Source: Bacteroidales bacterium (GTDB lineage: Bacteria; Bacteroidota; Bacteroidia; Bacteroidales; WCHB1-69). Taken from it: a DNA stretch of 64,000 bases. A program made the position numbers and the translations under genes. Shown piece after piece: positions 3,713 to 63,545 of this stretch (position 1 is its first letter; every line of letters starts with the position of its first letter). The DNA is taken from NCBI GenBank assembly GCA_017454945.1, contig JAFTCA010000041.1, positions 62,001 through 126,000 of the forward strand, read 5' to 3'. The notes beneath the pieces were generated by a model, which saw only the letters and a program-made list of their open reading frames with translations, ran no database searches and was not told where the DNA came from.

Positions 3713-4087
3713 ATGGGAATGGATTTTAGCAGTAGCAGAGCCATTTATCTGCAGATTGTGGATTGGGTATGCGCTCAGATTGTGAGCGAGCACTGGCCCG
3801 TGGGCGAGCGAGTGTTGTCGGTGCGCGAACTGGGTGCACGCCTCGAAGTGAATCCTAATACGGTGATGCGCTCCTATGAGATGCTTCAAAACCAGCAGAT
3901 TATCGTCAATAGGCGAGGCGTGGGCTTCTTTGTGGCTGATGAGGCGGTGGAGAAGATCAAGCAGATGAAGAAAGAACAGTTTGTCAATGAAGAACTGCCG
4001 GCAATGTTTGCCAATATGGAGATGCTGGGCGTGCCGCTGTCGGAAGTGGAAGCGCTGTATGAGGAGTGGAAGAAGAAAAGGGAATGA
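3713..4087 (+). CDS. GntR-family transcriptional regulator, YtrA subfamily
   Basis: This 124-aa protein begins with a GntR winged helix-turn-helix (AIYLQIVDWVCAQI, then VRELGARLEVNPNTVMRSYE). It has only a short helical tail after residue 75 in place of a large effector domain. That compact layout defines the YtrA subfamily, whose members repress their own ABC transporter operons. It follows the permease after 1 nt with a GGAGG-like element upstream. The inverted repeat at 1791-1816, on top of the operon promoter, is its likely target. The inducing ligand is unknown. A heptanucleotide repeat island starts directly at its stop codon. Confidence 0.88.
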   Translation: MGMDFSSSRAIYLQIVDWVCAQIVSEHWPVGERVLSVRELGARLEVNPNTVMRSYEMLQNQQIIVNRRGVGFFVADEAVEKIKQMKKEQFVNEELPAMFANMEMLGVPLSEVEALYEEWKKKRE

Positions 4088-4262
4088 GAACAAAGAACAA
4101 AGAATAAAGAACAAAGAACAAATTCAGAATTCAAAAAGATATAGAGAATTATGGAATCATGGAATTATGGAAACATCTATGACTCAATAATTCTTAACTC
4201 CTTAACTTCTTAGTTTCTTAACTTTTTTCACTACTCACTATTCACTATTCACTTCTCACTTT
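4088..4262. repeat. Heptanucleotide repeat island A
   Basis: The island starts at the base after the GntR stop codon. It holds five GAACAAA-type words, an ATTCA/AATTC stretch, a GGAATTATGG triplicate, the words TTAACTCC, TTAACTTC and TTAGTTTC, and a CACTATT/CACTTCT array. The period is mostly 7 nt and in the middle 8 nt. The same words in the same order recur in islands at 31987, 42021 and 52781. I see no coding potential or promoter within it. Confidence 0.85.
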
Positions 4263-4302
4263 TATAAACTAATCTTTAGGTGCGTATTTCAAAATAATTC
4301 CC

Positions 4303-10465: not shown

Positions 10466-10470
10466 TACAA

Positions 10471-10500
10471 TGTAGGTGCGTAGCGCGCTACGCACCTACA
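10471..10500. repeat. Dispersed palindrome, copy 2 (30 bp, perfect)
   Basis: This is a perfect 30-bp palindrome identical in its core to copy 1 at 1595-1622. It begins 6 nt after the murF stop and lies between the convergent murF and pfkA genes (pfkA ends at 10519), where it could stop transcription from both sides. Confidence 0.88.
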
Positions 10501-10518
10501 AGCAATAATGTCGTTTGC

Positions 10519-11698: not shown

Positions 11699-13183
11699 TT
11701 ATTTCTTCTTGCTTGAAGTGGGGGCACCCAGACGGGCCATAGCACAACGGAAGCCGATGTATTTGGTCGATTCGTCTTCGTCGAGGTAACGTCTTTGGCC
11801 AGGACCTGCATAGTATTGGATGTCAACCCAAGAACCACCTTTGTAAACGCGGGCGTGGTCGCCAACCAACGAGTAGCTACCGTCGATATCTTTCGGGTAC
11901 ATGGCGTCGGTTGAGTTAGAAGAGCTGTTCTTCCAAGCGTCAACGTCATTCAGAGAAGCCCAGTCACCATCCAGATAGTTGATGTTGTCTGCTTGACGAT
12001 AGTTACGTCTTCTGTCGTTTTTGAAGTCGGATACGGGAACCATGGGTACACGACCGATACTGTCACGTTCTTCAACGGTACCGTCTTCCAATAGTTTCTT
12101 GGTCTCGTAGTAGTTGCCTCTGAAGGGGCTCAGTTCGTACAAGTCGTCATGTGACGATTGTCTGTAAACGTCCATTACCCATTCGGCAACGTTACCGCCC
12201 ATATTGTACAAGCCATAATCGTTGGGCCAGTATGCGTTAACGGGAGCGGGCATGTAAGCTGCGTCGTTCAGATAACCGGCAACGCCCATGAAGTCGCCAC
12301 GACCACGGCGGGTGTTAGCAACAAAGTCGCCATAATATTTCTTCTCGTCGGTACGGGTGTAGTGACCGTTCCAAGGATAGAGTTTTCTTTCCAGTACACG
12401 TTCGTTCAAGGTATTGCCAATCAAACCGTAGGCTGCATATTCCCATTCAGCTTCGGTGGGGAGGCGGTACTTGGGAAGAAGGATACCATCTTCCATACGT
12501 GCGTTTCTGTATTCACCCGTGGTGATGTATTGCAATCTCTTGTCGCTTTCAGCTTCGTACGACTCGTAGGTCAGGTAAGCGTCGGTGTTGAAATAGCCTT
12601 CGGGTGAGGGTTCGGGTGACCATTCGATCAAACCTTCATCCACCAGAATCTTTTCATTCACACGGTCGGTTCTCCATGCGGCGTAGTTGGTGGCTTGCAG
12701 CCAGTTAACACCTACTACAGGATAATTTCTGTAAGCGGGATAGCGGAAATAGTACTCAACCTGCGTTTCGGCATAGGTCAGCTTCTCTCTCCAAACATTC
12801 TCATCGGGAAGAGCGTTGTCGTAAACCACCTTCAAGTCAGCGGGAACGAATACTCTCTCCAACCAATAAAGGTATTCAAGGTAGTCGAGGTTGCTGATTT
12901 CCGTCTCATCCATATAGAATGAGGGGATGGTAACACGACGCGGAGTGTTGTTCCATTCATACATTACATCCTGCTCCATACGACCGAAGGTAAATGTACC
13001 ACCTTCAATGAGTACAAGGCCAGGGCCAGTAGCTTGTTCTTGGAAAGGATAAACTTCAAATCCTCCGTTCTTGGCATCATTGTAAGCCCAACCGGTAGTG
13101 GGGGAAGTCTCCTTGCAAGAAGTGAAAGAGATTACACAGAGTAAGAGAACAACAACTTGAATTAAGAAATTCTTGGTTTTCAT
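11699..13183 (-). CDS. gldJ: Gliding motility/T9SS lipoprotein GldJ
   Basis: This 494-aa lipoprotein has a signal peptide ending at lipobox FTSC (C23) and a formylglycine-generating-enzyme (SUMF1)-like fold. Visible motifs are LVLIEGGTFTFGR, MDETEISNLDY, YRLPTEAEWEYAA, MGGNVAEWVMDVYR and YKGGSWVD. The opening SPTTGWAYNDAKNGGFEV, just after the lipobox, is characteristic of GldJ and distinguishes it from GldK/PorK. GldJ is an outer-membrane lipoprotein needed for T9SS stability in Flavobacterium. Its gene often sits next to porU and porV, as here. It is 63 nt downstream of the porP-like gene in the same orientation and probably shares its promoter. A strong terminator follows. Confidence 0.88.
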   Translation of the reverse strand: MKTKNFLIQVVVLLLCVISFTSCKETSPTTGWAYNDAKNGGFEVYPFQEQATGPGLVLIEGGTFTFGRMEQDVMYEWNNTPRRVTIPSFYMDETEISNLDYLEYLYWLERVFVPADLKVVYDNALPDENVWREKLTYAETQVEYYFRYPAYRNYPVVGVNWLQATNYAAWRTDRVNEKILVDEGLIEWSPEPSPEGYFNTDAYLTYESYEAESDKRLQYITTGEYRNARMEDGILLPKYRLPTEAEWEYAAYGLIGNTLNERVLERKLYPWNGHYTRTDEKKYYGDFVANTRRGRGDFMGVAGYLNDAAYMPAPVNAYWPNDYGLYNMGGNVAEWVMDVYRQSSHDDLYELSPFRGNYYETKKLLEDGTVEERDSIGRVPMVPVSDFKNDRRRNYRQADNINYLDGDWASLNDVDAWKNSSSNSTDAMYPKDIDGSYSLVGDHARVYKGGSWVDIQYYAGPGQRRYLDEDESTKYIGFRCAMARLGAPTSSKKK

Positions 13184-29321: not shown

Positions 29322-30437
29322 ATGAAGAACATTGCGATTATCGGTGCTGGCTCGGCGGGCTTGTTTGCGGCCAAACTGCTTTCATCTTACGAAGATGTGA
29401 AAGTGACGGTTTTTGAAAAAGCGAAAAATCCGGGCACTAAGTTGAGGGCATCGGGCGGAGGAAAGGCCAACATATTGAATGCCAATGTTAAAGGAGATTG
29501 TTACAACAATCATCGCTTTATGGACGCCTTCCTTCAACGCACTGGCTATCAGACCATCTACAACGAGTTCTCGCGCATGGGCTTGCGCATGACCGTAGAT
29601 GACGAAAATCGCGTTTATCCGGCCACGCTCTTCTCCAAAACTGTCCTCGATGTGTTGCTTTCCAACCTCTCATCGCGGGTCTCTTTTCGTTGCGAGTGCA
29701 CTGTGAAGAAACTCGTTCATTGTGAGGGCAAATGGTATGTGAACGAGTTTCCCGAGGCTTACGATAATGTGCTGATGGCGTCAGGTTCGCCTGCCAATAT
29801 GATTGCCGCCAACCGTAAGGGAATTGCTGATTATTGGAAGGCGCTTCATCTGGACGACAAACCGTTTGAGCCGTCGCTGGTGGGCTTCAAGATCAAAGAT
29901 TATCCCAAAGAATTGTATGGCTGTCGCGCGAAAGCGGAAGTCTCTTTGTATCAAGAATCCACGTTGGTATGGAAAGAAATTGGCGAGGTGATGTTTAAGG
30001 AAGACGGAGTTTCGGGTATTGTGGTGATGAATCTTTCTTCTCGTTATAATCAATTGAAAAACAGGAAAAAGTGTCGCTTTTCGCTCAATTTCTTGTATGA
30101 TGATGAAGCGTTTGATGTCAAGGCGCATCTGTCCCGATTTCACGATTTGGCGGGTGTGTTGCACCCGAAACTGAACAAGCTCTACCAACGCAAGCCATTC
30201 GATTTGCGAAATTTTACATTAGCGATTGATAGTCTGTATGATATGGAATTTGCGCAGGTGTGCGCCGGTGGTATTAGTGTGGATGAGGTGACAGATACTT
30301 TCGAGTTGAAAAAATACCCAGGCCTCTATGCCGTGGGCGAGATGTTGGATATTGATGGCGTTTGTGGAGGCTACAATCTTTTCTTTGCCTTTGCGTCGGC
30401 ATACGAAGCAGTAAAAGCGATGACTCATGGACATTAA
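29322..30437 (+). CDS. HI0933-family NAD(P)/FAD-dependent oxidoreductase
   Basis: This 371-aa flavoprotein of the HI0933/BaiN family has an N-terminal Rossmann motif GAGSAGLFAAKLL (residues 7-19). The family motif KLRASGGGKANILNAN is complete. A C-terminal FAD-closing segment follows: CAGGISVDEVTDTFE and GEMLDIDGVCGGYNLFFAFASA. It is slightly shorter than the usual 390-410 aa. The reaction is unknown for most members. It overlaps the next flavoprotein gene by 11 nt, so the two are translationally coupled. The start codon is almost at the transcription start. Confidence 0.88.
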   Translation: MKNIAIIGAGSAGLFAAKLLSSYEDVKVTVFEKAKNPGTKLRASGGGKANILNANVKGDCYNNHRFMDAFLQRTGYQTIYNEFSRMGLRMTVDDENRVYPATLFSKTVLDVLLSNLSSRVSFRCECTVKKLVHCEGKWYVNEFPEAYDNVLMASGSPANMIAANRKGIADYWKALHLDDKPFEPSLVGFKIKDYPKELYGCRAKAEVSLYQESTLVWKEIGEVMFKEDGVSGIVVMNLSSRYNQLKNRKKCRFSLNFLYDDEAFDVKAHLSRFHDLAGVLHPKLNKLYQRKPFDLRNFTLAIDSLYDMEFAQVCAGGISVDEVTDTFELKKYPGLYAVGEMLDIDGVCGGYNLFFAFASAYEAVKAMTHGH

Positions 30438-31986
30438 AATCTCCAATTTCAAGATGCCCGTTACGACCCCCGTCAGTGCACTGAAGACGATGGTGATGAA
30501 CCGCTATCGCTTGAGTGGCAGTGAGGTGGCTGACTTTCGCATTCTACGAGCTTCGATTGATGCCCGCAAAAGGAGCAATGTGGAATATGAGTATGCGGTG
30601 ATGCTCTCGCTAACCACCGATTGTCCTGACTTGTTGTCCAAGCCGAATGTGTCGCTCTATGAGTCGCCTAAGCCGTTGGAGTACCACGAGTGGCCGCACG
30701 CACAGCGCCCTGTGGTTGTGGGCTTTGGACCTGCTGGCATGTTCGCAGCACTTTATCTGGCACGCTGTAATGCCCGCCCCATCATTATCGAGCGTGGTAG
30801 CCGCATCGACCAGCGCAAGCAGGAGGTACACCGCTTTATGGATGAAAAAGTGCTCAATCCCGATTCAAATGTGCAGTTTGGTGAGGGTGGCGCCGGCGCT
30901 TTTTCCGATGGCAAGCTGACCACCAACCTGCATAATGAATATATCGGCTTCGTGCTGGAGGAATTTTACAAACATGGCGCCACAGAGGATGTGCTTTATG
31001 CCGCCAATCCGCATGTGGGTACCGACTATCTTGAGAAAGTGGTTCGTAACATAAGGGAAGAGATCGCATCGTTAGGTGGTAGTTTCTATTTTAATACCCG
31101 CTTTGCCGACTTTGAGCCCGCAGGCGACGGCGTGCGCGTGAACTGTCACAATGGTTTGCAGTTCGAGACGGCGCATGTGCTGCTCTGTATCGGCCATTCA
31201 GCGCGCGACACCATCCGCCAGCTATATGCCAAAGGTATGCAGATGGAGGCCAAGAGTTTCTCGATGGGTGTGCGTGTGGAACATTTACAACACAAAATCA
31301 ATAAGATACAATACGGCAACTTTGCTCGTTACTTGCCGCCGGCATCATATAAAGGCGCCGTGCATTTGCCCAATGGCCGCGGCGTTTATACCTTCTGTAT
31401 GTGTCCTGGCGGTACGGTCATGGCCTCGACCAGTGAGCCCAACTCCATCGTGACCAACGGAATGAGCGAGAAGAGTCGCGACAAGGCCAATGCCAACAGT
31501 GCGCTGCTCGTGTCGGTTAATCCCGAAGACTACTACAAGGACAGCCCGATGGATGGCTTGGCCTATCAGGAAAAGTACGAGCAGTTGGCGTTTAGGGTAG
31601 GAGGTGATTACAGTGCACCGGCTAACCTGATGCGCGAGTTTATGCGTCGTGAGGTGGCCGACAAGCACCGCAATGTCAAGCCGTCGTATCCGCACGGTGT
31701 GATTTATTGCGATTTCAACCGCTGTTTGCCCGACTATGTGGTTAACTCTTTGCGAGAGGCTATTCCGTTGTTCGACAAGAAGTTGAATGGCTTTAACGAC
31801 CCCGATGCCGTGATGACGGGCGTGGAAACGCGTTCTTCATCGCCCGTGCGCATCCTTCGCGACGAGCAGCGTCAAAGCAATGTCCATGGCATCTATCCCG
31901 TAGGTGAAGGTGCCGGCTATGCAGGAGGCATCACCAGTGCCGCCATCGACGGACTGAAAACTGCTATCTCGATAGTAGAGAGTTGA
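30427..31986 (+). CDS. FAD-dependent dehydrogenase (COG2509 family)
   Basis: This 519-aa flavoprotein has an N-terminal domain of about 95 residues (KISNFKMPVTTPVSALKTMV), then the FAD motif VVGFGPAGMFAALYLA. The family signatures GEGGAGAFSDGKL, MCPGG and GEGAGYAGGITSAAIDG follow. These are typical of the COG2509 group of uncharacterised dehydrogenases. Its start lies inside the end of the HI0933-type gene, indicating coupled translation and perhaps related substrates. No electron-transfer partner is visible nearby. A repeat island begins directly at its stop codon. Confidence 0.87.
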   Translation: MDIKISNFKMPVTTPVSALKTMVMNRYRLSGSEVADFRILRASIDARKRSNVEYEYAVMLSLTTDCPDLLSKPNVSLYESPKPLEYHEWPHAQRPVVVGFGPAGMFAALYLARCNARPIIIERGSRIDQRKQEVHRFMDEKVLNPDSNVQFGEGGAGAFSDGKLTTNLHNEYIGFVLEEFYKHGATEDVLYAANPHVGTDYLEKVVRNIREEIASLGGSFYFNTRFADFEPAGDGVRVNCHNGLQFETAHVLLCIGHSARDTIRQLYAKGMQMEAKSFSMGVRVEHLQHKINKIQYGNFARYLPPASYKGAVHLPNGRGVYTFCMCPGGTVMASTSEPNSIVTNGMSEKSRDKANANSALLVSVNPEDYYKDSPMDGLAYQEKYEQLAFRVGGDYSAPANLMREFMRREVADKHRNVKPSYPHGVIYCDFNRCLPDYVVNSLREAIPLFDKKLNGFNDPDAVMTGVETRSSSPVRILRDEQRQSNVHGIYPVGEGAGYAGGITSAAIDGLKTAISIVES

Positions 31987-32124
31987 TAGTTAAAGAAGTT
32001 ATTAGTTATTAGTTATTAGTTGTTAGTTTTTAGCGATACTAAAACACAATAACTCTTAACTCCTTAGTTTCTTAGTTTCTTAGTTTCTTAACTTCTTAAC
32101 TGTTCACAGCTCACTATTCACTAC
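31987..32124. repeat. Heptanucleotide repeat island B
   Basis: The island begins right after the stop of the COG2509 gene. It runs through TTATTAG/TTGTTAG words, a TTAGCGATA junction, TTAACTCC, TTAGTTTC (three times) and TTAACTTC words, and finally a CACTATTCAC stretch. The junction and word order match island E at 52781 read on the opposite strand. Confidence 0.85.
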
Positions 32125-34312: not shown

Positions 34313-34356
34313 ATGAATTATTTTATATTAAATATTAAATTATTTAAAATAATAAA

Positions 34357-36294
34357 TTATTTGACGGTATACTGTTTCCTTTTCACATGCTGCGTGTACG
34401 ATTGCAGGATGGCTTTGAAATAGTTGTTAGCGGCCTTTTGCGAAGCGTTGTTCAGATTCAAGATGTTGGTTTTCTGTAAGGTATCGTTGGCGGTAAAGGC
34501 ATATAATGTCTGTTCGCCGTTGGAATAGAGACTGAGCGAATCGGAGATAAATTGGTAGATCTGGTTGACACAGTTGGTGGCAACGGCTTGCCGTTCGGGC
34601 TCATTGAACGCATCGCGGCCAAAGGCAAAGTAGGGCTGTTTGTAGCCGATGAGGCCCAGTGTAGTGGGCATAATGTCAAGTTGTTGGCTCACTTCGGCAC
34701 CCAAACCTTGTAACGAATGGTCGGGTGTGTACATAAAGTAGATGATGGCGGTGCTGCCCTTGGTGGTCTGTGATTCCTCGTGGGCATTATAGCCGCCGGC
34801 ATGGTCGGCCACAAAGATGAACAACGTGTTTTGGAACCATGGCTCTTTTTGAGCTTTTTCGAAGAATTTGCGGATGGAGAGGTCGGTGTAGGCCACGCAT
34901 GGCTGCAGTGGATTGACGCCCGTAGGCATCTTGTCGGCATACTCTTGTGGCAAGTCGAACGGATGGTGTGAAGTAAGGGTGTAAATGGTGGTGAAGAAGG
35001 GCTTTTGCAACTTGTTGATTTCCTGTTCTGTAAATTGCAGAAAGTCCATGTCCCAAATGCCCCACACATTGGCGTAGTCGCCGTTTGGATGCTGCTTTTC
35101 AAAGTCGGCGCGGTTGTGAAAATGGCGTATGCCGGTCATCTTGCCAATAGCTTCGAAGCCCATCTGGTTCTCAGTGGCACCGCAGAAGAAATGGGTGCTG
35201 TAGCCGTGTTCTTCCAGAATGGTGGGCAGCGCTTTCATCTCGCCCACGGCCTCGGGCAGCAGAGCGAAGGGAACCTGGTAGGAGGGGATGGATGCCAAAA
35301 TGGAAGGCAATGCCTCTATCGACTTGCGACCATTGCTGTAGGCGTTGGTAAAGGCGTATCCTTCGCGCATCAGGGAATCCAAGAATGGCGTGTAGCCGCC
35401 GTTTGGATTGAGGTGCGGCATCATGAATTGTGAATGCTCGCGATTGAAACTTTCTAATACAAAGATGATTATGTTCTTTTGGCCAATTTGATATTTGAAA
35501 TTTCCAGAGGGGTAGTGGTAAGGAGTGAAAATCTTTTCGGCCGTGGCATCATCAAAATAGTGAAGCGTTTGGAACTGCTGGGCGCGAAGTGTGCGCAATG
35601 TGCAGAACGGATTGCTAAGGATAACGGAGGTCTGTGCTGCCGTCTGTGTGTAAAAAGCGGCATGGCCGACGGTGGCGGGGATGGCTTTGCGGTCGAAAGA
35701 GCTGCGGATGCCTATGAAATAGATGGCTACGCCTAAGCCGAGCAGGAGAATTTGCACGGGATAGTACAGCCAGCGTTTGGTGATGGTCGAGCCCTGATAA
35801 GGCACTTTTTTGTAGAGGTACACCATCAAGGCGATGAGGGCGATGGCGACGAGTACGAGATACCAGTTCTCGTCGATGGATTTCCAAAGTATGTCGCCCG
35901 TATTGTCATTCTCGCGGAAGAAGTGCAATTCCTCGGCGGTGATGCGCTTGAATGTATAGCGGTAATAGACGGTGTCTGCAAGGTTTAATACAATGAGACC
36001 CAGTGTGTTGGTGATAGTGTAGATCCAAAATAACATCTGCTGATACCACTTCTTTTCCCGAAAATGGAATGGCAGCAGCGACAGTGCCAGGAAGGCGGAG
36101 TTGAGGTAGAGAATCGAGATGGTGTCGAACTTCAGAGCTCCTTTCAACATCAGCGGCAATGCCGACCATTGGATGGTACCGATGCTATGGTAGTTGTAGA
36201 TATAGAAAACCACTTGCGTGCACAGCAGGATGATATACAATACCAATAATTTTAGTATCAGTGCGATAAGGTCGTTGCTAAGGAGTTTTTTCAT
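34357..36294 (-). CDS. LTA synthase/phosphoglycerol transferase-like sulfatase-fold membrane enzyme
   Basis: The ATG at 36294 gives 645 aa. The longer open frame to 36393 crosses the promoter and is rejected. Five membrane helices fill residues 5-210. The periplasmic alkaline-phosphatase-fold domain follows, with metal-binding Glu in IFVLESFNRE, the likely nucleophile Ser in NGRKSIEALP, SHHPFDLP and the C-terminal metal site FVADHAGG. Enzymes of this family transfer phosphoglycerol or phosphoethanolamine head groups to glycans or lipids. Bacteroidetes lack lipoteichoic acid, so the acceptor is probably an envelope glycan or lipid A-like molecule. The name should not imply LTA synthesis. It diverges from an amino acid permease. 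Confidence 0.83.
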   Translation of the reverse strand: MKKLLSNDLIALILKLLVLYIILLCTQVVFYIYNYHSIGTIQWSALPLMLKGALKFDTISILYLNSAFLALSLLPFHFREKKWYQQMLFWIYTITNTLGLIVLNLADTVYYRYTFKRITAEELHFFRENDNTGDILWKSIDENWYLVLVAIALIALMVYLYKKVPYQGSTITKRWLYYPVQILLLGLGVAIYFIGIRSSFDRKAIPATVGHAAFYTQTAAQTSVILSNPFCTLRTLRAQQFQTLHYFDDATAEKIFTPYHYPSGNFKYQIGQKNIIIFVLESFNREHSQFMMPHLNPNGGYTPFLDSLMREGYAFTNAYSNGRKSIEALPSILASIPSYQVPFALLPEAVGEMKALPTILEEHGYSTHFFCGATENQMGFEAIGKMTGIRHFHNRADFEKQHPNGDYANVWGIWDMDFLQFTEQEINKLQKPFFTTIYTLTSHHPFDLPQEYADKMPTGVNPLQPCVAYTDLSIRKFFEKAQKEPWFQNTLFIFVADHAGGYNAHEESQTTKGSTAIIYFMYTPDHSLQGLGAEVSQQLDIMPTTLGLIGYKQPYFAFGRDAFNEPERQAVATNCVNQIYQFISDSLSLYSNGEQTLYAFTANDTLQKTNILNLNNASQKAANNYFKAILQSYTQHVKRKQYTVK

Positions 36295-40613: not shown

Positions 40614-40652
40614 AAATAACTAACAACTAAAGTCTAATGTCTAACGTCTAAA
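40613..40652. repeat. Heptanucleotide repeat island C
   Basis: This is a run of 7-nt words (TAACAAC, TAAAGTC, TAATGTC, TAACGTC, TAAAGTT). The array continues into the end of ispG, whose stop codon (40641-40643, minus) and last residues lie inside it. Confidence 0.8.
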
Positions 40653-42017
40653 GTTTCTCTTCCATTCCTCACATAACTCTTCCAGCTTGCACAATGCTTC
40701 GTCAAACGGCAGGTTGTCGGTGAGTCGTTCTTTGCCGCGGTACACCACCACTTTGCCTTCGCCACCGCCGACAATGCCGAAGTCGGCGTCGGCCATTTCG
40801 CCAGGGCCGTTGACAATGCAGCCCATTACACCGATTTTGAGGCCAGGATAGTTGGCAAATCGCTGTTTTACAATCTCTAACACCGACATGATGTCATAGC
40901 GGGTGCGCCCGCAAGAGGGACAAGAGATGAATTCGGTGCGGCTCATCTTGATACGGCAGGCTTGCAGGATGGTATCTTCTAATTGTTGCAAGGTGTTTTG
41001 ATCGAAATTTGCGGCTTCAATCTTCAGATTGCGGATTTTCTCGCGGTAATGTTCATAGCCTGTGATGCTCGCCACATCGGCAATTAGCGCGTCCATGTCG
41101 GTGGCATCTGAGCAGACTGTCAGCGTTCGGTGTTCGTCGATGTGGTAAGGAATTTGTCCTGCGCTGATGTCGGCCTTGAGTTTCTCCACGCGATTGACCA
41201 GGCAGTGGGCGAAGGGTGTCTCATTCTCCGGCGGTTCGGTGAGCGATACGCGGATGGTGTTGCCAATGCCGTTGAGCAACAGTGCGCCAATGCCCGCTGC
41301 CGACTTGCAGCGCCCTTCCAGTCCAGCGCCCGCCTCGGTAACGCCCAAATGGAGAGGATAAACCGTGCTTCTGTCGGTCATCATCTTGTGTAACAGCTGG
41401 GTAGCTTCAATCATGGTGCTCACATTGCTCGATTTCATTGAGAGCACGATGTTGTCGAACTGGTTCTGTTGGCAGATCTCTACCCATTCCATCGCCGATT
41501 GCGCCATGGCCAGCGGTGTGTTGCCGTAGCGGCCTATAATGCGGCGACTGAGCGAGCCGTGGTTGGTGCCGATACGGAGGACGGTGCCGTGCTCGCGACA
41601 AATGTCGAACAGCGGCTTGGCCTTGGCTGCCATCTTGTCCAATGCTGCCTGATATTCGCTGTCGGACATGTTCTCGTCGGCAGCGCTCTGGCGATCCACG
41701 TAGTTGCCCGGGTTGACACGCACTTTCTCCACAATGCTGGCACACGCTTCGGCTACGGCGGGACTGAAATGCACATCGGCAATCAGTGGCACGTTGCAGC
41801 CGTCGTGGCGCAGTCTGTTCTTAATTTGCTCTAATGCAGCCACTTCGTGTAAGGTCGGTACGGTGATGCGCACCATCTCGGCGCCAGCAGCTACCATACG
41901 CTTGGCTTGCGCCACTGTGGCTTCCACATCGTTCGTGTCGGTGTTGGTCATCGACTGAACGACAATAGGACAGCCGGAGCCCAAAGAGATGTTGCCAATT
42001 TTTACGACGGTATCCAT
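40641..42017 (-). CDS. ispG: 4-hydroxy-3-methylbut-2-enyl diphosphate synthase with short insert
   Basis: IspG (GcpE) reduces ME-cPP to HMBPP with a [4Fe-4S] cluster in the MEP pathway. The N-terminal TIM barrel is complete (PIVVQSMTNTDTND, PLIADVHFSPAVA, KVRVNPGNY). The cluster-binding domain has cysteines in ISCPSCGRTRYD and GCIVNGPGE. Total length is 458 aa. Enteric enzymes have about 370 aa, and plant and most Bacteroidetes enzymes above 600 because of a large middle domain. Here only about 90 residues (about 285-365) replace that domain, an intermediate form. The last residues RNFRR are encoded by heptanucleotide words. The gene begins beside island D. Confidence 0.9.
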   Translation of the reverse strand: MDTVVKIGNISLGSGCPIVVQSMTNTDTNDVEATVAQAKRMVAAGAEMVRITVPTLHEVAALEQIKNRLRHDGCNVPLIADVHFSPAVAEACASIVEKVRVNPGNYVDRQSAADENMSDSEYQAALDKMAAKAKPLFDICREHGTVLRIGTNHGSLSRRIIGRYGNTPLAMAQSAMEWVEICQQNQFDNIVLSMKSSNVSTMIEATQLLHKMMTDRSTVYPLHLGVTEAGAGLEGRCKSAAGIGALLLNGIGNTIRVSLTEPPENETPFAHCLVNRVEKLKADISAGQIPYHIDEHRTLTVCSDATDMDALIADVASITGYEHYREKIRNLKIEAANFDQNTLQQLEDTILQACRIKMSRTEFISCPSCGRTRYDIMSVLEIVKQRFANYPGLKIGVMGCIVNGPGEMADADFGIVGGGEGKVVVYRGKERLTDNLPFDEALCKLEELCEEWKRNFRR

Positions 42018-42020
42018 AAG

Positions 42021-42315
42021 GAATTTATAATTAATAATTTACAATTTACAATGTATAATTAGTTATTAGTGAATAGTGAGAAGTGAAAAGTGAGGAGTTA
42101 AGAAGTTAAGGAGCTAAGAAACTAAGAAACATTGTATTATCGTTTTTTTTAATCGCTAACAACTAACAACTCCTTTGAATTTGTTCTTTGTTCTTTGTTC
42201 TTTGAATTTTGAATTTTGAATTTCCGTTCTCCGCTCTCCGTTCTCCGCTCTCCGTTCTCCGTTCTCATCTCTCATCTCTCATCTCTCATCTCTCATCTCT
42301 CATCTCTTCACTCTC
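42021..42315. repeat. Heptanucleotide repeat island D
   Basis: This is the largest island and fills the gap between ispG and the FecE-type ATPase gene. Read on the minus strand from the ATPase stop, it has GAGATGA words, GAGAACG/GAGAGCG words, GAATTCA-like words, three GAACAAA words, TTCAAAGGAG, TTGTTAG words with TTAGCGAT, TTCTTAG/TTAACTTC words, a CACTATTCAC stretch and TTGTAAA words. The last ATPase codons (RRVKR and stop) are within it. Confidence 0.85.
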
Positions 42316-43064
42316 CTAATATTTCCATTCTCATCCACTGTAAACCGCTCGTCCAAGTGGAAGGTCGGTTTAATAATGTCGGATGTTAGCACTTCGCGAC
42401 AGGGCCCGTAGTGGCAGATGTTGCCGTTTTGCATCAGTAGGGCTGTGTCGGCGTATTGCAAAGCCATGGGGAAGTCGTGCAGAATGAGTAGCAGTGTTGT
42501 GCCCATATCGTGCTGCAGTTGGGCGAGAATGTCCATAATCTCGTATTTATGGGCGATATCGAGGTTGGCCAGTGGCTCGTCGAGGAGCATGACGGGTGCT
42601 TGCTGCACCATGGCGCGAGCGATGAGTGTGCGTTGCAGTTCGCCGCCGCTAAGTTGCGACAGCAAGCGCTCTTTGAGGTGAGCCAGATGGGTGCGCTCCA
42701 ATGTCTCGCACACAAGGCGGTCATCGTCAGCCGACGCACTGCCCCAGCGACCTTGGTAAGGGTTTCGTCCCATCATAACTGTATCATAAACAGAGAATTC
42801 GAAGATGATGTCCTCGCGTTGAGGCACATAAGAAATCATCTTGGCTAACTCGCGTTGTGAGTAATCATTCAGCGACTTCCCATTAACAAGGATTTCTCCG
42901 CTATTGGGCATAAGCAGGTTGACCATCAACTTGAGGAGTGTGCTCTTACCTGAGCCGTTTGGCCCCATAACCGCACAAAAGCAGCCTTTGTCGATGTGCA
43001 GGTTGACATGCTGCAAGAAAGGGGTGTTGTCGTATGAAAAGGATAAGTTATTGATTGTAATCAT
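42300..43064 (-). CDS. FecE/BtuD-type ABC transporter ATP-binding protein
   Basis: This 254-aa ATPase starts at ATG 43064 (MITINNLSFSYDN). The open frame upstream belongs to the preceding gene region and is not used. Motifs are Walker A GPNGSGKST, Q-loop YVPQRED, signature LSGGELQR and Walker B VMLLDEPLANLD, with switch H in LILHDF. The sequence is closest to the iron-siderophore, haem and cobalamin uptake class. No permease or binding-protein gene is near. It follows the PD40-OmpA gene after 1 nt, so both are in one operon. The C-terminal residues are encoded by the adjacent repeat island. Confidence 0.87.
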   Translation of the reverse strand: MITINNLSFSYDNTPFLQHVNLHIDKGCFCAVMGPNGSGKSTLLKLMVNLLMPNSGEILVNGKSLNDYSQRELAKMISYVPQREDIIFEFSVYDTVMMGRNPYQGRWGSASADDDRLVCETLERTHLAHLKERLLSQLSGGELQRTLIARAMVQQAPVMLLDEPLANLDIAHKYEIMDILAQLQHDMGTTLLLILHDFPMALQYADTALLMQNGNICHYGPCREVLTSDIIKPTFHLDERFTVDENGNIRRVKR

Positions 43065-43065
43065 T

Positions 43066-44673
43066 TTAGTTGGAGTGATATTCGGTAATTTGAATGCGCC
43101 TTTCAAGTGATGCCGCAATGCTATAGACCGAGTTGCGTTTATCATTGATATTGTCGCTGACCAGCTTGGAGGCGGTAGCTTGCCCTTTCGGATTTTCGTG
43201 TATTTCAAGGCGGTTGGCTTTCTCGCCATTCATGTAAGGCAAGAAAAGTCCGTTCTTGTATTCGCAGAGGTAGTTCTTCAGGCTGGCAATGCGTCGTGCC
43301 GATAAGCGCAGGTTGTATTCGGCTTTGTGTAAGGGACTTGCGTAACCGCTGATGGTGATGCGCACATCTTTGCCAGCTTCCAATTCCTGTTGTAGGTAGG
43401 TGGTGAAGAGTTCCAGTCGGGCGTAGCCTTGCTCAATCGAGTCGGCAAAGAAGTCGCGGATACGCTCTTTGGCCATCTCCTTCTCTTGTCCCTTCAGTCC
43501 TTTGGAATACTCCTCCTCGTAGGTGGTGCGCATGGCAATGTAGCTGGCCAGCGTGTTGCGGTAGTTGGCACGGGTGGTGGTCTCCCACGAACGCGGGTCG
43601 GGTTCGTCGTTGTGGAAGTAGAGTGTTAGCGGCAGTATGTTGCGAATCTTCTCGACGGTCGTGATGGTGTCTTCGGCCACAGGTTCCTCCACTTTGCGGT
43701 AACCGTCCCAGTTGTAATGATAGATGTCGCTGCAGCAAGTGTCCTCTTCCGACATGAATCGGGTGGGGCGGTTGGACGAGAAATAGCCGTGGGTGTTGTG
43801 TCTGTTTTGTGAGAAGTAGTAGTCGTTGTATTCCGAGTTGAAGGGCACGCCCATATTGTCGGGCTCGGTCCATTGGTTGAAGGAGCCGTTGCTGTAAAAG
43901 ATATCGTAGCCGCCAATGCCCGGGTGGTGGTCAGAACTGAAATAGAGCGTCTCGCTGTTCTTGTCGTAAAACGGCGTTATCTCGTTTCCGGGCGTGTTGA
44001 TGTTGCTGCCCAGATTTATAGGGTCGCTGTAGTGGTCATCCTGATAGAGGGTGTACCAAATGTCGAAGCCGCCAAACCCTTTGGGCCGGTCGGAGGAGAA
44101 AAAGAGGAGGCTGTAATCCCCGTATTCCACCAGATTGGGTTGTGTGGTGCTGGTGCCGGGCAGATTGATGCGGCGGTTGAGGCGCTTGGCCTTTTCCCAG
44201 CGGCCGTTGTGTTGTTCACTTTTCCATAAGTCGCATTGCAGGTGTGCGTCGGTTGTGCGTACACAGCGCGTGAAATAGAGCACTGTGCGCTTTTCGTTGA
44301 AAGTGAAATTGCAGTTGTAGTATTTTGTGCTATTGATGGTGCTGGGCAGCGGAAACGCCCGTGTGTAGCCGCGTCGCTTGAGTTGGCAACTGTAAATGTA
44401 GCCCGACCAGTAGGCGTCGAAGATGCCTTCGTGGTCGGCCTCGCTCTCCGAGCGGAACGAACTGAAGTAGAATGTCGAATCGGGAAAGAGGATGCCGTTG
44501 TATTCGGAGTAGGTGCTGTTCACAGCGCGAGGCAGGCGGGTGATCTTGACGGGCAGCGTGTCGTGCTTGATGAACTCTATCTGCTGCCTGATATGCTCGT
44601 CAGAATCCACTTGTGCTACAAGCAGTAGCGGCAAGCAAAACAAACAAGTCAATATCAGCATTCTGCCTTTCAT
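43066..44673 (-). CDS. PD40-propeller/OmpA-family envelope protein
   Basis: This 535-aa protein has a signal peptide (MKGRMLILTCLFCLPLLLVAQ) and a PD40 beta-propeller (about 50-310; blades such as LLFFSSDRPKGFGGFDIWYT and SSDHHPGIGGYDIFYSNG). After a linker, an OmpA-like domain (about 420-510) contains VRITISGYASPLHKAEYNLRL, here with SGYASP in place of the usual GHTD. It resembles a shortened PorE without TPR and regulatory domains. Such genes often accompany a PorP/SprF gene, and the PorP domain fused to rarA lies just upstream. The altered OmpA motif makes peptidoglycan binding uncertain. Confidence 0.8.
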   Translation of the reverse strand: MKGRMLILTCLFCLPLLLVAQVDSDEHIRQQIEFIKHDTLPVKITRLPRAVNSTYSEYNGILFPDSTFYFSSFRSESEADHEGIFDAYWSGYIYSCQLKRRGYTRAFPLPSTINSTKYYNCNFTFNEKRTVLYFTRCVRTTDAHLQCDLWKSEQHNGRWEKAKRLNRRINLPGTSTTQPNLVEYGDYSLLFFSSDRPKGFGGFDIWYTLYQDDHYSDPINLGSNINTPGNEITPFYDKNSETLYFSSDHHPGIGGYDIFYSNGSFNQWTEPDNMGVPFNSEYNDYYFSQNRHNTHGYFSSNRPTRFMSEEDTCCSDIYHYNWDGYRKVEEPVAEDTITTVEKIRNILPLTLYFHNDEPDPRSWETTTRANYRNTLASYIAMRTTYEEEYSKGLKGQEKEMAKERIRDFFADSIEQGYARLELFTTYLQQELEAGKDVRITISGYASPLHKAEYNLRLSARRIASLKNYLCEYKNGLFLPYMNGEKANRLEIHENPKGQATASKLVSDNINDKRNSVYSIAASLERRIQITEYHSN

Positions 44674-52313: not shown

Positions 52314-52787
52314 ATGAAGATAAAGCTGATCATTGTTGGCAAAGAGAGTGCTGAGGTGTTCGACGATGCCATTGACCAATACACTAAAAAACTGAAATTC
52401 TATATCCCTTTTGAGACGGTGGTGGTGCCTTATCTGAAAAAGACCGCCGCGCTCTCGGTAAGTGAGCAGAAAATCCAGGAAGGCGAAGCAATCTTGAAGA
52501 AAATCGACCCGCAGGACTATGTGGTTCTGCTCGATGAACATGGCAAACAGAAAACGTCCGTGGCTTTTTCCGAATTCCTACGCAAGCAGATGTGTAGCAG
52601 CCTGAAAACATTGGTGTTTGTTGTCGGAGGCCCTTACGGCTTCTCGCAGCCAGTGTATCAGCGTGCCAATGAGCAACTTTCGCTTTCCCTTATGACTTTT
52701 CCCCATATGATGACGCGCCTTATCTTCATTGAACAACTCTACCGCGCCTTCACCATCATTAAAGGGGAACCGTATCATCATGAGTAG
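52314..52787 (+). CDS. rlmH: 23S rRNA (pseudouridine1915-N3)-methyltransferase
   Basis: This 157-aa SPOUT methyltransferase uses S-adenosylmethionine to methylate pseudouridine 1915 of helix 69 in 23S rRNA. The knot region is intact: FVVGGPYGFSQPVYQRAN and LSLMTFPHMMTRLIFIEQLYRAF, with the ending GEPYHHE. The length is standard. It is the last gene of the glycogen transcript. Its stop codon TAG (52785-52787) is itself part of a heptanucleotide word (TGAGTAG) that opens island E. Confidence 0.95.
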   Translation: MKIKLIIVGKESAEVFDDAIDQYTKKLKFYIPFETVVVPYLKKTAALSVSEQKIQEGEAILKKIDPQDYVVLLDEHGKQKTSVAFSEFLRKQMCSSLKTLVFVVGGPYGFSQPVYQRANEQLSLSLMTFPHMMTRLIFIEQLYRAFTIIKGEPYHHE

Positions 52788-52930
52788 TGAGGAGTGAGAA
52801 GTGAATAGTGAGAAGTGATTAGAGTTAAGAAGTTAAGAAACTAAGGAGTTAAGAATTATCGCTAACAACTAAAAACTAACAACTAAAAACTCCTTTGAAT
52901 TATACATTATTCATTGTAAATTATACATTG
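52781..52930. repeat. Heptanucleotide repeat island E
   Basis: From the rlmH stop the words are TGAGTAG, TGAGGAG, TGAGAAG, TGAATAG and TGATTAG. TTAAGAAG/AACTAAGG words, a TATCGCTAA junction, AACTAAAAACTAAC words, CTCCTTTGAA and TTGTAAA/TACATTG words follow. Read on the minus strand the order equals that of islands B and D. The last TTG (52914-52916) serves as -33 element of sufC. Confidence 0.85.
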
Positions 52931-52943
52931 TTTCGTATCTTTG
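52914..52943 (+). promoter_or_regulatory. Promoter of sufCD
   Basis: TTG at 52914-52916 and TATCTTTG at 52936-52943 are spaced by 19 nt. The -33 element lies inside repeat island E, so the island contributes part of the promoter. Confidence 0.7.
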
Positions 52944-52972
52944 CAGTCGCAAAATTTTGAAAATCCATTATT

Positions 52973-53731
52973 ATGTTAAAGATAGAGAATTTACACGTTT
53001 CCATTAAAGGCAAGGAAATTCTGAAAGGCCTGAATTTGGAAGTGAAAAGAGGTGAGGTTCATGCCATTATGGGACCTAACGGAACGGGCAAAAGTACGCT
53101 GGCTTCGGTCATTGCGGGCAAGGACATCTATGATGTGACCGGCTCCATCACCTATAAAGGCAAGAATCTGTTCGACCTGTCTATTGAAGAACGTGCCCGC
53201 GAAGGCATCTTCATCGGCTTCCAATATCCTGTGGAAATACCTGGTGTGAGCATCACCAACTTTATGAAAACTGCTGTGAATGAGGTGCGTAGATACAAAG
53301 GTCTGGAACCGCTCACCGGTGGTGCCTTCCTGCGCCTGATGGAAGAGAAGAAGAAAGTTGTGGAACTGACTGCCAAGCTGAGCAACCGCTCGGTGAACGA
53401 GGGTTTTTCGGGTGGTGAGAAGAAGCGCAACGAGATTTTCCAGATGGCCATGCTTGAGCCGGAGTTGTCCATCCTTGATGAGACCGATTCGGGATTGGAC
53501 ATTGATGCCCTCCGTATTGTGGCGAATGGTGTCAACCAACTGAAAACCAAAGATAATGCCACTATCGTCATCACGCACTACCAGCGTCTGCTCGACTACA
53601 TTGTGCCCGATGTGGTGCACGTGCTCTACGACGGCAAGATTGTCAAGTCGGGTCCGAAAGAGTTGGCAGTAGAACTGGAAGAGAAGGGCTACGACTGGAT
53701 TAAACACGAATACGAAGCAGGACTTTTATAA
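52973..53731 (+). CDS. sufC: Fe-S cluster assembly ATPase SufC
   Basis: This 252-aa ABC-type ATPase powers the SufBCD scaffold. The motifs are Walker A GPNGTGKST, Q-loop GFQYPVEIPG, signature FSGGEKKRNEI with the SufC-specific EKKRNE, Walker B LSILDETDSGLD and switch H in VITHYQR. The length is standard. It leads the sufCD operon. sufB is not present upstream as it is in many Bacteroidetes, and would have to lie elsewhere in the genome. The island E repeats separate it from rlmH. Confidence 0.95.
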   Translation: MLKIENLHVSIKGKEILKGLNLEVKRGEVHAIMGPNGTGKSTLASVIAGKDIYDVTGSITYKGKNLFDLSIEERAREGIFIGFQYPVEIPGVSITNFMKTAVNEVRRYKGLEPLTGGAFLRLMEEKKKVVELTAKLSNRSVNEGFSGGEKKRNEIFQMAMLEPELSILDETDSGLDIDALRIVANGVNQLKTKDNATIVITHYQRLLDYIVPDVVHVLYDGKIVKSGPKELAVELEEKGYDWIKHEYEAGLL

Positions 53732-58936: not shown

Positions 58937-60817
58937 ATGAAAAGAATTGTTCTGCTATTCTTTGTTTTGGCGATGACGCTGAGTGGTCTTCAGGCCCAAA
59001 CGTGGCGTCCTGCAGGTGACAATATCCTAACTCCGTGGGGTGAGAATCTGAATCCGTTGAATGTGCATCCCGAATATCCGCGGCCGCAGATGGTGCGCGC
59101 GGATTGGCTTTCGCTGAACGGTCAGTGGGATTACGCAATTACCTTTGCCAATGCAGATCTTCAGATATTGTATCAGAAAAAGTGGGATGGCAAGATTTTG
59201 GTGCCATTTCCTGTGCAGTCGGCGCTATCGGGCGTGGGTAAACATGTTAGCGACGAAGAGGCGCTGTGGTATCATCGCACGATTACGGTGCCTAAGAACT
59301 GGAATGGCAAGCACATATTGTTGAATGTGGGCGCTGCCGACTGGAAAGCAGAAGTGTTTGTCAATGGCCGGAAGGCTGGCGAACACACGGGCTGCTATGC
59401 CTCATTTTCGATAGACATTACCCCGTATCTGCTCAAGAGTGGCAAGCAAGAGTTGGTCATCAAGGTGACCGACGGCGGTGACAAATCCTACCAGCCCAAA
59501 GGCAAGCAGGTGGATAGTCCGCGAGGTATCTACTACACGCCCGTAACTGGCATTTGGCAAAGCATTTGGCTGGAGCCGGTCAATGCTTCTCATCTGCAAC
59601 GCTATACCGTAGTATCGGATATCGATAAGCAGCAACTGCACATAGCTGCGGAGAAGGTCATGCCCCAAACGGGCGATAAACTTCGCTTTGAACTGCTGTC
59701 GGGAGGCGAGGGCTATTCACCTGAAAGACCTTCCACCACCGTTATTGCTTCGGCTGAAACGGAAGGCAAGGAGGTGACTCTAACGGTGCCCAATGTTAAA
59801 TTGTGGTCACCTGACAGCCCCTATTTGTATGGATTGCGCATTTCCCTGGTGCGCGACGGCCAGGTTGTTGACCAGATTCAAGGCTACACCGCCATGCGCA
59901 AGCTCTCGGAGTTTGTCGATGGTCGCCGCTTCCATCGCTTTGCGCTTAACAACCAGCCAATTTTCCACTATGGTCCGCTTGATCAGGGCTGGTGGCCCGA
60001 CGGCCTTTACACAGCACCGACCGACGAAGCACTGAAGTTTGATATTGTCAAGACCAAAGAGTTGGGCTTCAATATGATACGTAAACATGTGAAGGTGGAA
60101 CCCGACCGCTGGTACTATTGGTGCGATGTGTATGGCATCATGGTTTGGCAGGATATGCCGTCGATGGTGTGCGGTACCAGTCATCATACAGCCAAGTGGG
60201 AGCACAGCCAGAAACGCACTTCTTACGGCCTGGGCACCGACGAGGTGATTCCTGAGGAGTGGAAAGCCAATTTCTACAAAGAGTGGAAAGAGATTATCGA
60301 CCAGCACCAAGCCTTCCCCTGCATTGTGATGTGGGTGCCTTTCAACGAAGCGTGGGGACAGTTTGACACGAAGGAGGTGACCGATTTTACTTACCAGTGC
60401 GACAGTACGCGTTATCTCAATCCCGCTTCGGGCGGCAACTTTAGAAATTGTGGCAATATCATTGATTATCACACATATCCGGAGCCGAGCTTGCGCGTCT
60501 TCATTCGCGATTATATGAATGTGATTGGCGAGTACGGCGGCATCGGCTTTAGAGTAAATGGTCATCTTTGGAAGCAAGAGGGCGACTATTCCTACCTGAA
60601 AATGCAGAATGCTGATGATGTGTTCAATAAGTATGCCGATTATGCTGAGATGCTGAAGGACTACATCAAAGTGGGCATCACGGGCGCCGTCTATACGCAA
60701 ACCACCGATGTGGAAACGGAAACCAACGGTTTGATAACTTACGACCGCAAAGTGGTAAAATTGAACCCCGCCAAGATGAAAGCCGTGAACCAAGGGGTGA
60801 TAGGAGCGATGAAGTAA
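58937..60817 (+). CDS. Secreted glycoside hydrolase family 2 protein
   Basis: This 626-aa protein has a signal peptide (MKRIVLLFFVLAMTLSGLQAQ). It has the GH2 sugar-binding domain (about 60-200; SLNGQWDY, WYHRTITVPKNW, VFVNGRKAGEHTGCY), an Ig-like middle and a TIM barrel. Acid/base Glu is in VPFNEAWGQF and the nucleophile Glu in VIGEYGGIGF. GH2 enzymes act on beta-galactosides, mannosides, glucuronides or arabinosides. The activity here cannot be fixed. The barrel is compact and lacks extra C-terminal domains. It stands alone, not in a SusCD polysaccharide utilisation locus. Repeat island F starts at its stop. Confidence 0.9.
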   Translation: MKRIVLLFFVLAMTLSGLQAQTWRPAGDNILTPWGENLNPLNVHPEYPRPQMVRADWLSLNGQWDYAITFANADLQILYQKKWDGKILVPFPVQSALSGVGKHVSDEEALWYHRTITVPKNWNGKHILLNVGAADWKAEVFVNGRKAGEHTGCYASFSIDITPYLLKSGKQELVIKVTDGGDKSYQPKGKQVDSPRGIYYTPVTGIWQSIWLEPVNASHLQRYTVVSDIDKQQLHIAAEKVMPQTGDKLRFELLSGGEGYSPERPSTTVIASAETEGKEVTLTVPNVKLWSPDSPYLYGLRISLVRDGQVVDQIQGYTAMRKLSEFVDGRRFHRFALNNQPIFHYGPLDQGWWPDGLYTAPTDEALKFDIVKTKELGFNMIRKHVKVEPDRWYYWCDVYGIMVWQDMPSMVCGTSHHTAKWEHSQKRTSYGLGTDEVIPEEWKANFYKEWKEIIDQHQAFPCIVMWVPFNEAWGQFDTKEVTDFTYQCDSTRYLNPASGGNFRNCGNIIDYHTYPEPSLRVFIRDYMNVIGEYGGIGFRVNGHLWKQEGDYSYLKMQNADDVFNKYADYAEMLKDYIKVGITGAVYTQTTDVETETNGLITYDRKVVKLNPAKMKAVNQGVIGAMK

Positions 60818-60913
60818 TTTACAATTTACAATTCACAATTTATAATTTACAATTGATAATTACAATTCATAATTAAGAACAAAGAACAAAGAACAAAGAG
60901 CAAAGAACAAATT
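60818..60913. repeat. Heptanucleotide repeat island F
   Basis: Directly after the GH2 stop come TTTACAA, TTCACAA, TTTATAA and TTGATAA words, then five GAACAAA-type words as in islands A and D. It leaves only 21 nt before the second FISUMP gene, and no -7 box is visible there. Confidence 0.83.
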
Positions 60914-63327: not shown

Positions 63328-63363
63328 ACGCCGTGAGGAAATATCTCCTTGCGGCGTTTTTTG
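63328..63363 (+). terminator. Terminator after the second FISUMP gene
   Basis: ACGCCG (63328-63333) pairs with CGGCGT (63352-63357), a weaker inner GAGG/CTCC pairing extends the stem, and TTTTTT follows. Confidence 0.87.
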
Positions 63364-63373
63364 TGAATATCTC

Positions 63374-63401
63374 GTAGGTGCGTAGCGCGCGACGCACCTA
63401 C
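63374..63401. repeat. Dispersed 28-bp palindrome, copy 4
   Basis: This is the same palindrome as at 1595-1622 with a single mismatch in the right arm (CGACGCACC in place of CTACGCACC). It lies just after the terminator of the second FISUMP gene. Confidence 0.83.
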
Positions 63402-63545
63402 AACAAAATGTTTGGCACGGTTTTTGATATAGTATATATGGCCACGCTGATATAAGCGAGAATGCGCTTTTTCAGACATTAAGGCAGAAAGAGGATGACA
63501 CAGAGACACTGACATTTTGACATGATTTTCAAAGAGAAAATTTTT

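Follow-up and report, generated by a model that had tools for sequence, protein, structure and literature searches.

Word islands in the window

The 64,000-nt stretch analysed here (the window) covers bases 62001-126000 of contig C5 from the MAG of a Bacteroidales gut bacterium. At 52.8 kb it contains an island of short tandem words, which sits between the predicted genes rlmH and sufC and is reversed relative to both neighbours. Genes were called with a simple codon-usage script, and eight word modules were tested, namely T (AATTTAY), G (GAACAAA), N (AATTCAR), E (GGAATTAT), L (TTAGTTN), O (CTTAACTY/CTTAGTTT), C (YTCACTN) and S (TCTCATC/TCCGTTC). The islands of the window and the neighbouring genes are as follows.

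52314..52787, plus strand: ORF upstream of the 52.8-kb island, which we take to be RlmH-like from its C-terminal Tyr-His-His motif; its last codon and stop lie within the island
52781..52932, minus strand: the 52.8-kb island, with T-like words, AATTCAAAGGAG, L, TTAGCGATA, O and C
52786..52818, minus strand: C module of this island, YTCACTN heptamers
52823..52852, minus strand: O module of this island, CTTAACTY/CTTAGTTT octamers
52862..52886, minus strand: L cassette of this island, TTAGTTN heptamers, with the TTAGCGATA junction to O
52973..53731, plus strand: ORF downstream of the 52.8-kb island (252 aa), presumably a SufC-like ABC ATPase, a name given from protein features
4087..4263, plus strand: island G-N-E-O-C, which begins at the stop of ORF 3713-4087
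4153..4170, plus strand: E cassette, GGAATTAT octamers, contributing to an imperfect inverted repeat whose arms are at 4145-4163 and 4176-4194
31990..32124, plus strand: island L-TTAGCGATA-O-C, directly past the stop codon of ORF 30427-31986
42010..42222, minus strand: island N-G-TTCAAAGGAG-L-O-C, between ORFs 42300-43229 and 40641-42017
42223..42304, plus strand: S arrays of TCCGTTC and TCTCATC heptamers, on the strand opposite to the adjoining 42-kb island
60816..60912, plus strand: island T-G, starting within the stop codon of ORF 58937-60817

The SufC-like ORF has relatives in 90 of the 98 family genomes, and the rlmH-sufC synteny was not found in the relatives with a located sufC start. 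There is no inverted repeat of at least 9 nt in 52770-52945, and no Rfam family was detected in the window at gathering scores.

An initial annotation of this DNA had claimed that four islands, read in a common orientation, keep the same order of words. These are most likely the islands at 4088-4260 (plus), 32002-32122 (plus), 42022-42301 (mainly minus) and 52786-52930 (minus), an assignment that we infer, and it turned out that the word order is indeed the same in all four. The series of words that had been listed holds as an order and not as a content, as none of the four carries every word. For instance, 4088-4263 contains GAACAAA/AATTCAA, TTAACTCC, TTAGTTTC and TCACT words and has the GGAATTAT module in place of TTGTTAG/TTAGCGATA, while 31990-32124 is without GAACAAA/AATTCAA and without TTCAAAGGAG. 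Among the compared islands, TTCAAAGGAG and the exact CACTTCTCACTATTCAC are limited to those at 42 kb and 52.8 kb; TTAGCGATA is present at 32 kb and 52.8 kb, and the 42-kb island carries TTAGCGATT. At 60816-60895 there are the first two modules only.

Besides, other repeats occur in the window. A near-perfect palindrome, GTAGGTGCGTAGCGCGCTACGCACCTAC, which is REP-like and separate from the word islands, lies between genes at 1583-1634, 10445-10511 and 63362-63413, and also at L074:5187. At 34316-34362 an AT-rich tandem repeat has a period of 17-22 nt and no relation to the 7-8-nt words.

Order and strand of the modules

The source MAG (2.62 Mb in 124 contigs, 96.65% complete, 3.55% contamination) is the sole genome of its genus in our comparison set, which holds one genome per species. 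The window and stretches L070-L089 of the genome form the unbiased set; stretches L050-L069 were picked by their match to the 52.8-kb island and are therefore enriched for O and C.

Throughout the genome the modules nearly always follow the order T-G-N-(one central cassette)-O-C-S on one strand. We read this order on contig C5, where 58 module pairs are concordant and 4 discordant and 51 of 55 modules lie on the same strand, and then tested it on other contigs. In the held-out and unbiased contig C99, 62 of 66 pairs are concordant and 50 of 51 modules are on one strand; in 20 further stretches, chosen by match to the 52.8-kb island, the values are 215 of 221 pairs and 175 of 184 modules. Across 2000 order shuffles, the mean concordance was 50%, with maxima of 77% (C5), 79% (C99) and 66% (the 20 stretches). 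Random word order among further copies, which the initial annotation had named as the result that would speak against it, was looked for, and the order proved non-random: it is kept in 277 of the 287 pairs of the pooled held-out contigs (C99 and the 20 stretches), against a shuffle maximum of 79%.

The exceptions include C-O-C, O-C-O-C and N-G-T-G-N islands, most of which we read as two part-copies placed end to end. The picture of a single element is too simple, since alternative cassettes occupy the centre and the ends vary. Among the spacers in which O is preceded by a G or N module (36 in all), the cassette is E in 8, L in 6, H in 5 and Q in 3, with none in 13 and L together with Q in 1, so that exactly one of the four is present in 22. 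The H cassette, located between N and O, is hairpin-like and ends in GGAATGAC. Copies also have non-word linkers in common, for example AAAAAGATATAGAG, which precedes E, and ACACCAACAATTAAACAATC, which follows H.

Unit length of the words

To describe the unit length, we counted exact tandem pairs in the spacers of the unbiased set, 217 in number with 73,358 bases. Pairs of 7-nt units were observed 72 times against 4.8 expected, and those of 8 nt 27 times against 1.3. For 5 nt the count was 46 with 48 expected, units of 9, 10, 11 and 12 nt gave 1, 1, 0 and 0 pairs, and 4-nt units showed no excess comparable to that at 7-8 nt in these spacers. In the coding-DNA control, 7-nt pairs numbered 16 with 13 expected. 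The 7-8-nt preference was repeated in all five relatives tested. The question why 7-mers dominate the long simple repeats of bacteria becomes sharper with this genome, in which units of 9-12 nt hardly occur beside those of 7 and 8, arrays start at stop codons, and words known across the taxonomic order stand in an arrangement private to the lineage.

Related copies and turnover of sites

An all-against-all alignment yielded 323 local matches with words in them, of which we inspected the best 22. Within these 22, there are composite subfamilies that share non-word linkers and differ in their flanks; for example, L053:19242-19388 and L053:11466-11612 are 93% identical over 147 bp, with unlike flanks and unrelated genes. 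A 184-bp composite is present twice in the relative G076 with 98.4% identity, and since the upstream genes of this pair have similar ends, it may have moved together with gene sequence. Most gaps between aligned copies span 1-5 nt, 647 of them a single nt. Lengths of 7 and 8 nt form no more than a local peak (46 and 47), compared with 39 at 6 nt and 15 at 9 nt.

By mapping the flanks of 197 arrays from seven genomes, we got nine matches, which represent seven distinct orthologous spacers. Because there is one genome per species, occupied and empty sites are compared here at the level of species or genus. The initial annotation would have doubted copying if empty sites never occurred in relatives; five of the seven spacers are without an array in the partner, between species or genera, one of the five having a changed gene content. 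In G011 an array of ~150 bp extends from stop to start, where G000 has a 24-nt gap. Array-free partners were also found for G000 versus G011, G054 versus G076, G077 versus G079, and G076 versus G080, the last with a target gap of 1,455 bp. The G080/G054 spacer is occupied in both, with O and C kept and the remaining words replaced; the G011/G079 spacer is likewise occupied in both, with different words. Stretches L215 and L216 of G079 include 72,000 masked N bases, and these bases were excluded for gene calling.

Words and order across the taxonomic order

With the 52.8-kb island as blastn query, matches were obtained in 65 of 99 family genomes. In the taxonomic order, 33 of 149 genomes had a match, and 31 of those 33 belong to other families. 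Of 295 genomes of the taxonomic order, 2 contain the exact octamer 22-mer, and both are members of this genome's family (29 copies here and 1 in G033). In this genome the O-to-C pattern has 152 matches and the C-to-O pattern 22 (matches overlap, so islands are fewer), while in the family sample of 98 O-to-C occurs in 9 other genomes and C-to-O in 10. The order is thus not intrinsic to the words, because O-to-C is no commoner than its reverse elsewhere in the family. Judging from these sequence matches, the words are widespread in the taxonomic order and the O-to-C arrangement is private to the lineage, as would be expected if a local master composite had been copied. A family-wide conservation of O-to-C, which we had expected, was not found.

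A search of genome contigs returned 3 matches, all in the Bacteroidales MAG RGIG7251. The 52.8-kb island had no blastn match among phages, and island L083:14475-14665 had none among plasmids with the low-complexity filter on. Among viral contigs the octamer 22-mer had 0 matches and the N-word 26-mer 1 (L233).

Probable copying of a composite

Composite copying together with unit-wise expansion and loss is well supported, because order and strand are kept, near-identical composites stand at unrelated genes and orthologous spacers are found both occupied and array-free. The initial annotation had proposed that a composite was copied and that its copies later expanded or suffered deletions in place, and the held-out order, the near-identical composites, the lineage-private arrangement and the array-free sites all speak for it. 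With moderate confidence, we regard the islands as copies of a dispersed modular non-coding repeat, which spread by copying and were then altered by slippage of units. Against this reading count the lack of fixed ends, terminal inverted repeats and target duplications, the gap lengths, the islands with mixed order, the related genes upstream of the G076 pair, and the fragmented state and contamination of the MAG.

In such a process, a composite, or several adjacent modules together, would be copied from spacer to spacer, probably via ectopic recombination or gene conversion anchored in the shared modules. Recombination of this kind would preserve the order and allow the central cassette to be swapped, and strand slippage by one unit would then lengthen or shorten individual arrays. 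Copies would survive where they are harmless, between a stop codon and the promoter that follows it, and the surviving ones would often supply the last codons or the stop codon. In this lineage, sense copies, with their C-rich, G-poor RNA, are commoner, perhaps because reversed copies are costlier or because sense copies aid Rho loading. The ordered modules offer a readable history of copying for a kind of DNA that usually aligns poorly.

Position, orientation and a possible role at 3' ends

To figure out where the islands lie, we summarized their positions relative to the called genes. There are 142 islands in about 835 kb, 5 of which are within called genes. Multi-module islands mostly start 0-15 nt from a stop codon (where there is one on that side), often inside the stop, and end tens to hundreds of nt ahead of a start codon. 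In the unbiased part, islands occupy 39 of 130 co-directional, 7 of 24 convergent and 6 of 37 divergent spacers of at least 60 nt.

Between co-directional genes, 41 of 54 multi-module islands point in the direction of transcription (p 0.0002). In the unbiased part 18 of 23 do so, and the bias is independent of G-skew (19 of 25 for genes on the G-rich strand, 22 of 29 for genes off it). This bias makes a role at transcript ends directly testable. The islands could be functional 3' ends, in which a C-rich, G-poor sense RNA after the stop codon loads Rho and replaces hairpin terminators. As an account of the islands we judge this unlikely, with roughly a minor share of our belief; a Rho-loading role can be compatible with the copying explanation. 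The available text of PMC9160355 describes rut sites as C-rich, G-poor and unstructured. For composition and terminators we used co-directional spacers of 90-500 nt, where the words of an island spacer come from at least two families and all lie on the same strand (35 plus, 8 minus; mixed and single-family spacers omitted) and 107 spacers are without any word. The best 78-nt window of the sense islands has 32% C and 2.6% G, a C/G ratio of at least 3 occurs in 33 of 35 sense-island spacers versus 12 of 107 island-free ones, and folding is weaker (-5.9 versus -19.8 kcal/mol per 100 nt). In the 35 spacers with sense-oriented islands, the RNA is thus of the rut kind (C-rich, G-poor, weakly structured). 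Hairpin terminators were predicted in 0 of 17 island and 15 of 39 island-free spacers of 150-250 nt, and a Rho gene is present in the genome.

Several results weaken this role. Thirteen of the 54 islands are reversed, and over all lengths the hairpin terminators number 4 in 35 versus 29 in 107 spacers (p 0.07), where the islands themselves occupy the space. The C-rich composition by itself follows from the words, and YC spacing in rut sites is 9-13 nt in the available text of PMC9160355, not 7-8. The arrays of relatives show no such orientation bias (14 C>G versus 17 G>C), and a general C>G orientation rule was not found there. An explanation by replication strand was rejected separately, as half of the islands (39 of 78) follow the G-skew strand, equal to chance.

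Slippage and transposition as alternatives

It is rather improbable, and more so than the role at 3' ends, that each locus grew on its own by polymerase slippage and that the likeness of words reflects intrinsic preferences (a 7-8-nt footprint and unstructured, G-poor words with stops). The words of the other families in the taxonomic order and the unit preference common to the five relatives agree with it, as do the word-to-word drift in some arrays (L024) and the orthologous sites with different words. Slippage, however, cannot yield a single module order, shared non-word linkers or 93-98% identical composites at unrelated genes, and the O-to-C order is lineage-specific. The claim that independent slippage is insufficient for the common order, made by the initial annotation, is therefore borne out by the held-out order, the linkers and these composites.

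Slightly less credible again is a MITE- or REP-like element whose movement relies on a transposase, for example one of the Y1/RAYT type. In its favour are the dispersed and oriented copies, the hairpin or inverted sequences of the H cassette and of the copies in L056, and six Y1_Tnp matches in the genome, among them the following ORF.

L238:1105-1821, minus strand: Y1_Tnp ORF (238 aa), which we take to be RAYT-like from its length and motif

On the other hand, the ends of the islands vary, and neither constant ends nor terminal inverted repeats were seen, which does not fit a MITE; nor do the islands resemble REP/BIME-RAYT systems, being non-palindromic apart from some cassettes, and no word arrays flank the transposase ORFs inspected. 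No target duplications were seen around the islands, and within arrays they are not definable. Least credible of all is that some cellular process with a 7-8-nt footprint writes or lengthens arrays at stops across Bacteroidales with a shared vocabulary, and that in this lineage a master composite spreads while its sense copies are recruited as 3'-end signals replacing hairpin terminators.

Two island copies (L056:3166-2879 and 12806-13094) have an insert of ~160 bp between O and N, the ends of which are inverted hairpin sequences (GGAATGAC...GTCATTCC), and it resembles a small mobile element inside the mosaic. At L235 ~1481-2050, longer repeats that share the core GGCATCCCCTTGCGGGGATGAAACC form an array next to a 155-aa Y1 transposase-like ORF.

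Relation to known heptamer repeats

The islands are an ordered, modular variant of the heptamer repeats of cyanobacteria, Beggiatoaceae, Xanthomonas and some Bacteroidetes. Cyanobacterial STRR are, in the available text of PMC2670836, intergenic degenerate repeats, usually of 7-bp units, with function unknown and discussed as transcript stabilisers or terminators. Compared by description, the islands too are intergenic arrays of degenerate tandem units of ~7 nt, and also of 8 nt; they differ in belonging to Bacteroidales, in using both 7- and 8-nt units and in having several word families in a fixed order with a swappable centre.

TAACTGA heptamers are known from Beggiatoaceae, cyanobacteria and five Bacteroidetes (MacGregor 2015, PMC4679880, from the part of that paper available). 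The same part reports near-identical heptamer-rich spacers and heptamer assemblages in Elizabethkingia, and repeat-free relatives with shorter spacers for Gramella and Aequorivita sites. Copying and turnover as such are thus not new, because near-identical Elizabethkingia spacers and repeat-free relatives are already on record there. Both kinds of repeat are intergenic, form assemblages of several heptamers in Bacteroidetes and have repeat-free relatives, but the islands follow stop codons, whereas the TAACTGA repeats of Beggiatoaceae mostly precede start codons in the available text (PMC4679880). Direct-repeat pairs of TAACTGA number 0 in 834,978 bases of this genome and 3 in 400 kb of G076.

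In a limited search of open-access literature, no publication came up that describes ordered mosaics of heptamers in Bacteroidales. Within the literature searched, the genome-wide fixed order, the swappable centre, the restriction to 7- and 8-nt units and the combination of shared words with a private order look new. From the available text of PMC4692102, the G-rich heptamers of Xanthomonas and Nostoc are a single quadruplex-prone word with no ordered modules, unlike the islands, and their arrays vary in length between relatives. Of their sites, 83% are common to two species in that text, while the islands turn over faster in our very small sample. About 90% of the Xanthomonas repeats are intergenic, at a mean of 28 nt from the upstream ORF (PMC4692102, same text), and this proximity to the upstream ORF is common to the islands and the Xanthomonas/Nostoc arrays.
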